This document shows, piece by piece, positions 41,484-43,311 of a DNA stretch of 64,000 nucleotides (the first letter of the stretch is position 1; the number at the start of each line of letters is the position of its first letter). The notes under the pieces were generated by a model, which made no database searches, had not been told where the DNA came from, and was given only the letters and a program-made list of their open reading frames with translations. Source of the DNA: Nitrospirota bacterium (GTDB lineage: Bacteria; Nitrospirota; UBA9217); contig DATIZR010000046.1 in the NCBI GenBank assembly GCA_035516965.1, positions 1 through 64,000 of the forward strand, in the 5' to 3' direction. The translations under genes and the position numbers were made by a program.

Positions 41484-42401
41484 CTACTTCTTGAAATTCT
41501 TCACCACGATTTTGAAGCGCCTGGCGAGCGGGGCCTTCATATCGATCGAGACGCGGAGCTGGAACTGGTCCTCCCCTTGCTGACTCAGCATCCCGAAGGG
41601 AAGGATGATCTGTCCATCCTCCATGAAGGCCCTGCCCAGGTTCACCTTGACCCCCGCATCAACGGCCTGCTCCAGTGCGGCCATTTCCGGCTTCGCTTCC
41701 GCCATGGGAGCCCCGGGCATCGACGGTTCGGCCGGAGGCGATTCCTGCTCCGTCTGGGACGGCGGCTGTTCATTGACGCCCCTCCCGATGTCACCGAGCG
41801 TGAAGTTGTGGCGTTCGGGATGTTTCTGCATGTCCTGCAGCACGAGCTTGGAGATGCCCGTAAAGGTCTTAAGAACGCCCTCGCCGGTCTTCGCGACCGC
41901 CTCGAAGGAGGGCACGCCGTGCGGGTTCAGTGCCGCGTTTAGTTCTTCCACGGGCATGACGTCAGGCAGGTCCCGCTTGTTGAACTGCAGGACCAGGGGA
42001 AAATCGTCGAGGTTGACCCCCTGCTCGTCGAAGTTGTCATAGAGGTTTTTAAGGCTTTCCACGTTGGCGTCCAGCATGTAGCGCTGCGAATCGGCCACGA
42101 AGATCACGCCGTCGGCCCCTTTGAGCACGAGCTTTCGCGTCGCATTGTAGAACACCTGGCCCGGCACCGTGTACAGGTGGAAGCGCACTTTATAGTTCTT
42201 GATGGTTCCGAGCTCTACCGGCAGAAAATCGAAAAAGAGCGTCCGGTCGGTCTCGGTCGCGAGCGATATGAGCTTGCCGCGCTGACCCGGAGCGATGCGA
42301 TGATAGATGAGGTGGATATTCGTCGTCTTCCCGCAGAGGCCCGGACCGTAATAGACGATCTTCGCATTGATCTCGCGGGTGGTGTGGTTCACGAGCGCCA
42401 T
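41484..42401 (-). CDS. MglA-like small GTPase with C-terminal extension
   Basis: Ras-like GTPase of the MglA/Arf type: P-loop GPGLCGKTT, switch region ETDRTLFFDFLPVELGTI, Walker B-like LYTVPGQVFYN and NKRD. Typical MglA is about 195 residues; this has 305. After a Pro/Gln/Glu linker (about 210-240) comes a conserved-looking tail with VKVNLGRAFMEDGQIILPFGM. MglA controls polarity and motility; no MglB is in the window. The mRNA may be nearly leaderless. Confidence 0.9.
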   Translation of the reverse strand: MALVNHTTREINAKIVYYGPGLCGKTTNIHLIYHRIAPGQRGKLISLATETDRTLFFDFLPVELGTIKNYKVRFHLYTVPGQVFYNATRKLVLKGADGVIFVADSQRYMLDANVESLKNLYDNFDEQGVNLDDFPLVLQFNKRDLPDVMPVEELNAALNPHGVPSFEAVAKTGEGVLKTFTGISKLVLQDMQKHPERHNFTLGDIGRGVNEQPPSQTEQESPPAEPSMPGAPMAEAKPEMAALEQAVDAGVKVNLGRAFMEDGQIILPFGMLSQQGEDQFQLRVSIDMKAPLARRFKIVVKNFKK

Positions 42402-42409
42402 AAGGACTC

Positions 42410-42438
42410 ATAATTACACAAAATCCGGAGCCTGTCAA
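42410..42438 (-). promoter_or_regulatory. Sigma70 promoter of the MglA-like gene
   Basis: Minus-strand TTGACA (42433-42438), 17-base spacer, AATTAT (42410-42415), then eight bases to the ATG, with no Shine-Dalgarno. The inverted-repeat element lies 15 bases upstream. Confidence 0.65.
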
Positions 42439-42444
42439 TACTGA

Positions 42445-42497
42445 CGACTCACGGGTAGTGTCTCAGTTTGGTCAAACTGAGACACTACCGACTCACG
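42445..42497. repeat. 35-bp inverted-repeat element flanked by 9-bp direct repeats
   Basis: Between two copies of CGACTCACG (42445-42453 and 42489-42497) lies a 35-base insert. It is almost wholly one inverted repeat: GTAGTGTCTCAGTTTG and CAAACTGAGACACTAC with a two-base centre. The right direct repeat covers the stop codon of the inositol-phosphatase gene. The layout is that of a minimal insertion: terminal repeats plus a target duplication. No T tract supports a terminator role. Confidence 0.65.
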
Positions 42498-43311
42498 AGT
42501 TCCCCGGGGTGAGCAGGTTCAGCGCCGCCACATGCGTCGCATCGTTCTTGCTGGCGAGCAGGGGCACGGTGCGCTCCAGTCCCACGACAATATGGTCGAG
42601 CGCCGTCCCCGTGAGGTCGGTTATCACGCCGTCAGCCTCTTCGAGGATCAGCATTCCCGCGGCATAATCGAAAGCCCGTGAGGAAGTTGCCGTAGCAAAC
42701 ACGCTGAGCGCTCCCGACGCGAGATACGAGAGGTCGAGAGCGGTGGACCCGAAGCACCGGATGCGTTTTGTCTGCGCGAGGAGCGGCATGATCCTCGGGA
42801 TGTCCGTCGCCGGCGAGGAGGCTTCGATCGCCACGATCGTGATGCCCTGCACGGCCGACGTCCTGATCCTTGCGCCATTCTTGTACGCCCCCTGCCCTCG
42901 CATGGCCCAAAACTCGTCGCCGCAGGCCAGGTTGATGACGTAGCCCACGGCCAGCGTGGAGAGGGTGTTCCCGTTCAGGAGCGCCAGGGATGTGGAAAAG
43001 AACGGGATGCCGGACTTGGCGTTGTTGCTGCCGTCGATCGGGTCCACGAGGACGATCTTTTCGCCGTCGCCGAACTTTCGGATGCCCAATTCCTCCGAGA
43101 TGAGCGTGAAGGACTCGCCCTCCCGGTGCGCCCGTTCGAGCGCAGCGATGACGATGTCCTCTGCCCACTTGTCAACGGGAAAGGTCTTGTCCCCCCCCGC
43201 CCCCTTGCCGAGCGGGACTGTGCCGCCTTCCCTGCTCAGGATAATGGACAATCCCCCGCGCATCTTTTTGCCGATCTGTTTGAACAGGTCGAGCCATTGT
43301 TCGTTTGTCAT
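42493..43311 (-). CDS. Inositol monophosphatase family protein
   Basis: Mg-dependent sugar phosphatase fold. Metal-site motifs: EELG near residue 73 and DPIDGSNNAKSG (DPxDGT/S type); the C-terminal motif DYAAGMLILEEADGVITD (normally WDxAAG) is also present. It may be inositol monophosphatase or an archaeal-type fructose-1,6-bisphosphatase; the sequence alone does not decide. 272 residues. Its stop codon lies in the flanking repeat of the small inserted element. Confidence 0.9.
   Translation of the reverse strand: MTNEQWLDLFKQIGKKMRGGLSIILSREGGTVPLGKGAGGDKTFPVDKWAEDIVIAALERAHREGESFTLISEELGIRKFGDGEKIVLVDPIDGSNNAKSGIPFFSTSLALLNGNTLSTLAVGYVINLACGDEFWAMRGQGAYKNGARIRTSAVQGITIVAIEASSPATDIPRIMPLLAQTKRIRCFGSTALDLSYLASGALSVFATATSSRAFDYAAGMLILEEADGVITDLTGTALDHIVVGLERTVPLLASKNDATHVAALNLLTPGNS

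Follow-up and report, generated by a model that had tools for sequence, protein, structure and literature searches.

Nearly precise excision is the closest known process to the one considered here. It is treated in work on Tn10 (excerpts of PMC5991714 and PMC12524634), and it was reported for Tn10 and Tn5 by Collins, Volckaert and Nevers in 1982, as cited in an excerpt of PMC5576700. In this process, the interior of the element is lost and short ends remain in an otherwise intact target, and inverted repeats promote the event. Its classical form uses short direct repeats. The Tn10 remnant is one fixed product of about 50 bp, formed at internal repeats. IS1-family elements encode a PF03400 transposase, generate 8-bp target duplications, and have ends that begin with GGT. 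Miniature inverted-repeat elements (MITEs) carry terminal inverted repeats (TIRs) and a target duplication and have no coding capacity. REP or GTAG-tagged palindromes are short intergenic sequences of high copy number with a tag at one end, and they are linked to tyrosine transposases (excerpt of PMC3733652).

The window, the whole stretch of 64,000 nucleotides analysed from a Nitrospirota contig, contains a short palindromic unit between two genes (Table 1). Direct reading gives 42446-42497 as GACTCACG + GGTAGTGTCTCAGTTTG-GT-CAAACTGAGACACTACC + GACTCACG, and an inverted-repeat search returned arms of 17 nt each (42454-42470 and 42473-42489) with 100% complementarity and a spacing of 2 nt. The initial annotation had described an inverted repeat between direct copies, and the palindrome at 42454-42489 is indeed perfect, with GACTCACG on both sides. 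It had also proposed a 35-bp unit with a 9-bp duplication. Both copies of the 9-bp CGACTCACG are present (42445-42453 and 42489-42497), but the first C of the second copy is the last base of the palindrome and is counted twice in this parse. A 36-bp unit flanked by the 8-bp GACTCACG is the better parse, because the TIR of related elements begins with GGTAG and their duplication is 8 bp.

Table 1. Features of the palindromic unit and its neighbourhood in the window
Feature	Coordinates	Strand	Evidence or remark
Target-site duplication, left copy, GACTCACG	42446..42453		8/8 match to right copy; present once in L009, where the site is empty
Left terminal inverted repeat GGTAGTGTCTCAGTTTG	42454..42470	+	Equals ends of IS1-like elements
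Centre GT, fusion point	42471..42472		1-2 bases outside TIR consensus
Right terminal inverted repeat, exact reverse complement of left	42473..42489	-	Inverted-repeat search
Target-site duplication, right copy, GACTCACG	42490..42497		Includes phosphatase stop codon 42493-42495, minus strand
Inositol-monophosphatase-family gene, upstream neighbour, intact	42493..43311	-	Pfam PF00459, E 2.3e-29
Small Ras/Arf-like GTPase (MglA-like) gene, downstream neighbour, intact	41484..42401	-	Pfam Ras PF00071, E 6.5e-6
Sigma-70-like promoter of GTPase gene (TTGACA, 17 nt, AATTAT), undisrupted	42410..42438	-	Both parts conserved in family-relative alignment

The unit lies on the stop codon of the phosphatase gene and 15 bases from the -35 element of the MglA-like gene, as had been noted from the sequence; the -35-like TTGACA is at 42438-42433. 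The phosphatase gene is intact because the right duplication contains its stop codon. The alignment of the family shows conservation of a promoter-like AGTATTGACA ... AATTAT at 42410-42442, ahead of the MglA-like gene. At five places in the window, this one among them, perfect inverted repeats have arms of 14 bp or more, and at one place the arms are 17 bp long; in five mononucleotide shuffles, no inverted repeat had arms of 11 or 12. Symmetry alone is little proof, since other palindromes occur in the window. What makes the case for an insertion is that the unit is flanked by a duplication, that a relative has the site empty, and that the arm is identical to a recurrent TIR.

The empty site is found in a genome of the same genus (G001, locus L009), which has the same gene order and one uninterrupted copy of the target, CGAATCACGAG. 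Its GTPase is 84% identical to that of the window. The comparison with relatives proposed in the initial annotation thus finds the target uninterrupted in this genome. The phosphatase also lies upstream in six of the ten aligned family relatives, the same-genus one among them, and the palindrome is absent from all ten. The same annotation had named conservation of the unit as a terminator in distant relatives as the result that would speak against an insertion, and such conservation was not observed in the aligned family relatives. The unit is an insertion and not a conserved terminator, because the target of the same-genus relative is uninterrupted and the palindrome is lacking in every family relative aligned.

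The arms are identical to a TIR that recurs outside this genome (17/17 in both arms). In viral contigs, GTAGTGTCTCAGTTTG is common (at least 120 stretches), and most of its copies, among the matches listed, run on as GTTTGAA. These viral-contig loci include at least 37 inverted TIR pairs with 8-bp duplications, 183-3838 bp long, a few of which are one site seen on different contigs; among the matches listed, the duplication is 8/8 in 36 of the 37 pairs and 7/8 in one. In two elements, L058 (1323 bp) and L120 (1365 bp), the TIRs enclose a transposase of 289-300 aa. Against Pfam PF03400 (DDE_Tnp_IS1), these proteins score 37.2 bits (L058) and 30.4 bits (L120), above the curated cut-off of 24.1, with E values of 4.5e-9 and 5.8e-7. 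Against the NCBIfam IS1 equivalog (NF033558), the L120 protein reaches 64.4 bits where 100 are needed, and the family is named only "IS1-like" because this cut-off is missed. Judged by these matches, GGTAGTGTCTCAGTTTG is the TIR of a widespread IS1-like family. Its elements resemble IS1 in the PF03400 transposase, the 8-bp duplications, and ends that begin with GGT. They differ in falling below the NCBIfam cut-off, in the length of many copies, which contain other open frames, and in having a TIR whose sequence is not that of IS1. Among the matches listed, many other TIR pairs enclose other open frames or none. The GGTAGTGTCTCAGTTTG-ended elements of 183-3838 bp in viral contigs (L038-L157) hold very different open frames. 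In many viral contigs, then, members of the family seem to include passenger genes.

The initial annotation had also suggested a search of the genome for these ends and for a full IS, and had named the lack of other copies and of a matching IS as evidence against its reading. Inside the window's genome both are lacking: a whole-genome search within one mismatch found no second TIR copy, and no family-type transposase was found there (G000), nor in 13 family relatives. Across other DNA the outcome is the opposite, since matching elements exist and a family-type transposase is present in 24 of the 148 genomes searched, often beside the subtype GGTAGTGGGTCAGTTTGAA. Rfam gave only chance matches below the gathering threshold (mir-5880, 23.2 of 97 bits; elsewhere, aceE-II, 20.4 of 100 bits), and the plasmid collection gave only half-arm matches (n=3).

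Fused TIRs of the same kind were found with the pattern GGTASTGTCTCA-N(0-30)-TGAGACASTACC, which matched 4 viral and 39 genome stretches; the reversed control pattern had no match in viral contigs. Together with four other units from the window's phylum and the window's own, and with L160 and L161 counted as one, there are 47 distinct fused units of 24-54 bp in many phyla. A duplication of at least 7/8 flanks 25 of them (8/8 in 21) and is absent from the other 22, and the chance of such a duplication is about 3.8e-4 per unit by arithmetic. Hosts with 8/8 duplications include Acidobacteria, Anaerolinea, Ignavibacteria, Rokuibacteriota, Deltaproteobacteria, Flavobacteriales, a Nitrospirae MAG, and the isolate Methylocystis sp. 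B8 (L196, 26-bp unit); most other fused units come from MAGs. The four other units of the window's phylum were found in scans of 395 genomes, sampled evenly from a larger set, and three of them have an 8/8 duplication and one has none. For the genome loci, 37 of 39 were taken (L172 and L194, which share their MAGs with L163 and L187, were omitted). A family transposase match at E 0.001 or better is present in 18 of these 37 genomes and a TIR within one mismatch in 26, which in some is the unit itself.

Further loci stand outside the count of 47. A short-arm scan of 71 viral contigs gave L158, L330 and L316, with 7/8 or 8/8 duplications and, in two, other TIR letters. A further viral scan (9 stretches) gave L349 with an 8/8 duplication, L348 with the 9-bp duplication GATGGTAGC, and L350, L351 and L352 with none; L350 and L352 are identical in unit and flanks. 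L136, a 30-bp unit with an 8/8 duplication, was spotted by eye among the viral TIR loci. Flavobacterium and Chryseobacterium isolates (L173, L179 and L195) have near-palindromes of 37-41 bp beginning GGTAGTGTCTCACTAA, without target duplication, which may represent a further TIR subtype or repeats of some other kind. The occurrence of similar scars in unrelated bacteria suggests that the family loses its interior in this way repeatedly.

How such units form is indicated by one genome, the Nitrospirae MAG nDJH15bin8 (G167), which contains a 167-bp MITE with these TIRs, read in six copies. The 54-bp unit L182 of this MAG is the 167-bp MITE without its middle, with 40 bp retained at one end and 14 at the opposite end, a blunt joint, one changed base, and an 8/8 duplication GATAATAC. 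At least this unit is therefore a deletion derivative, and it shows interior loss in the family. Among the six 167-bp copies (L337-L340 and L342), the 8-bp duplication is perfect in one and 7/8 in two. The size distribution has two groups: fused units measure 24-54 bp, and elements measure at least 167 bp. No unit of 55-147 bp was found in viral contigs, and one of 55-85 bp was found in the 395 phylum genomes. This 68-bp unit (L336:1501-1568) is of the GGG subtype, has a 7/8 duplication and arms that are complementary well beyond the TIR, and is perhaps a snap-back product. The shortage of intermediate sizes indicates that breakpoints favour the TIRs, where the joints of the fused units lie. 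TIRs probably guide the breakpoints, because random deletions in an element of 1-3 kb would not cluster at 24-54 bp.

The joints of 26 units were analysed with assumed inner TIR tails, and 10 of the 26 needed filler or have a variant TIR. In the 16 joints without filler, microhomology shows no excess (observed mean 1.13 bp, expected 1.28 bp, P 0.71), and slippage driven by microhomology was rejected for this reason. The window unit has no microhomology at its joint and 1-2 unexplained bases at its centre.

Taken together, the unit is probably a transposable-element scar: an IS1-like element or MITE inserted, and its interior was then lost by TIR-dependent deletion. The duplication itself and the empty site show that an element with GGTAGTGTCTCAGTTTG ends, either IS1-like or a short non-autonomous derivative, entered the DNA immediately beyond the stop codon of the phosphatase gene and produced the 8-bp target duplication. 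Later, the whole interior would have been lost with breakpoints in or beside the 17-bp TIRs, which were thereby fused. The TIRs may have paired as a hairpin or cruciform, or the ends may have been held by transposase, before cutting and joining near the stem. Pairing as a hairpin or cruciform, as in nearly precise excision of Tn10 and Tn5, which does not depend on RecA, seems the most likely route. No genome with the full element at this very site was found, so the deletion is not seen at the locus. Also counting against this explanation are the lack of a second TIR copy and of a family transposase in the genome, the joints without a microhomology excess, and the 22 units that have no duplication of at least 7/8. 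Full elements with these ends and 8-bp duplications, two of them with an IS1-type transposase, support the earlier idea that the terminal repeats of an IS were fused when its interior was lost, and this main reading is essentially right.

The window unit agrees with nearly precise excision in that both copies of the duplication are intact and the interior is gone. In contrast to Tn10 and Tn5, the fused units are natural scars of another IS family, and their joints lie within TIRs of 17-21 bp at varied positions; no short direct repeats are evident. In the titles and abstract openings of literature on IS1-family passengers, excision footprints and IS-derived palindromes, no description of such scars was found, and the TIR letters matched one paper, an unrelated cancer study. 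Like REP sequences, the window unit is a short intergenic palindrome with GTAG near an end, but it is single and symmetrical, is flanked by 8-bp duplications, and has the ends of a DDE element. A REP reading was rejected on copy number, symmetry and duplication.

Paired TIRs, either bound by transposase or folded as a hairpin, might shield the outermost 12-20 bp on either side as the interior is excised and the stubs are joined without homology; we offer this version tentatively, as possible but rather doubtful. If true, this IS1-like family would be erased in its own way, leaving a signature scar of 24-54 bp across many phyla.

Abortive transposition is an unlikely source of the unit. Here both ends would be joined to the target, the 8-bp gaps filled by repair synthesis that reached only a few bases beyond them into the TIRs, and the stubs then cut off and joined, so that the whole element was never at the locus. 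This would also yield a duplication with two TIR stubs, place the joints in or near the TIRs with no need for microhomology, and explain the scarcity of intermediate sizes. The 54-bp unit of the Nitrospirae MAG, however, retains sequence on its longer side far past the TIR, and the literature searched offered no precedent.

A still less probable origin is insertion of the 36-bp unit as such, with transposase supplied in trans. Its ends and duplication are perfect, and it shares with MITEs the TIRs, the target duplication and the lack of coding capacity; the family does have real MITEs of 167 bp. One Acidobacteriaceae MAG has an identical 26-bp fused unit at two places (L187 and L194), with an 8/8 duplication at one only, so that this pair speaks partly for and partly against such movement. 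Against it, the window unit is a single copy in a genome where the family transposase is absent and has not spread as a unit, which leaves the suggestion of a tiny MITE moving as such unsupported. Unit lengths and centres vary from genome to genome, and a unit of 24 bp has ends of 12 bp each. Two different TIR subtypes (L176 and L262) show the recurring 25-bp type, which therefore arose more than once.

It is highly improbable that an assembler jumped from TIR to TIR over a full element. The window does come from a 120-contig draft, and most other units come from MAGs. However, the two central bases, GT, do not both belong to the TIR consensus and would need to come from reads, the Methylocystis isolate has its unit with a full duplication, and the genome has no family transposase elsewhere. 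Equally improbable is a native terminator or regulatory hairpin of the phosphatase-GTPase pair: as RNA the unit forms a strong hairpin directly after the stop codon (-29.4 kcal/mol, z -4.84), but it is missing in every aligned relative, neither strand of the locus has a terminator-like site, and the unit is flanked by a duplication and identical to a TIR.

The locus itself is ordinary debris, and no function of the unit is indicated. The 36-bp remnant is probably inert, as both genes and the downstream promoter are spared and no T-run follows the stem, and for the organism these 36 bp are probably of no consequence. The recurrent class of scars is a new observation, if a modest one. When bacteria lose an IS, the event usually goes unseen, since nothing remains after precise excision. 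Here the loss leaves a scar that can be read together with its duplication, so that past element sites can be counted. These scars also allow a natural test of how inverted-repeat elements lose their interior, and the absence of a microhomology excess together with the few intermediate sizes argues that TIR pairing, and not chance direct repeats, sets the breakpoints.
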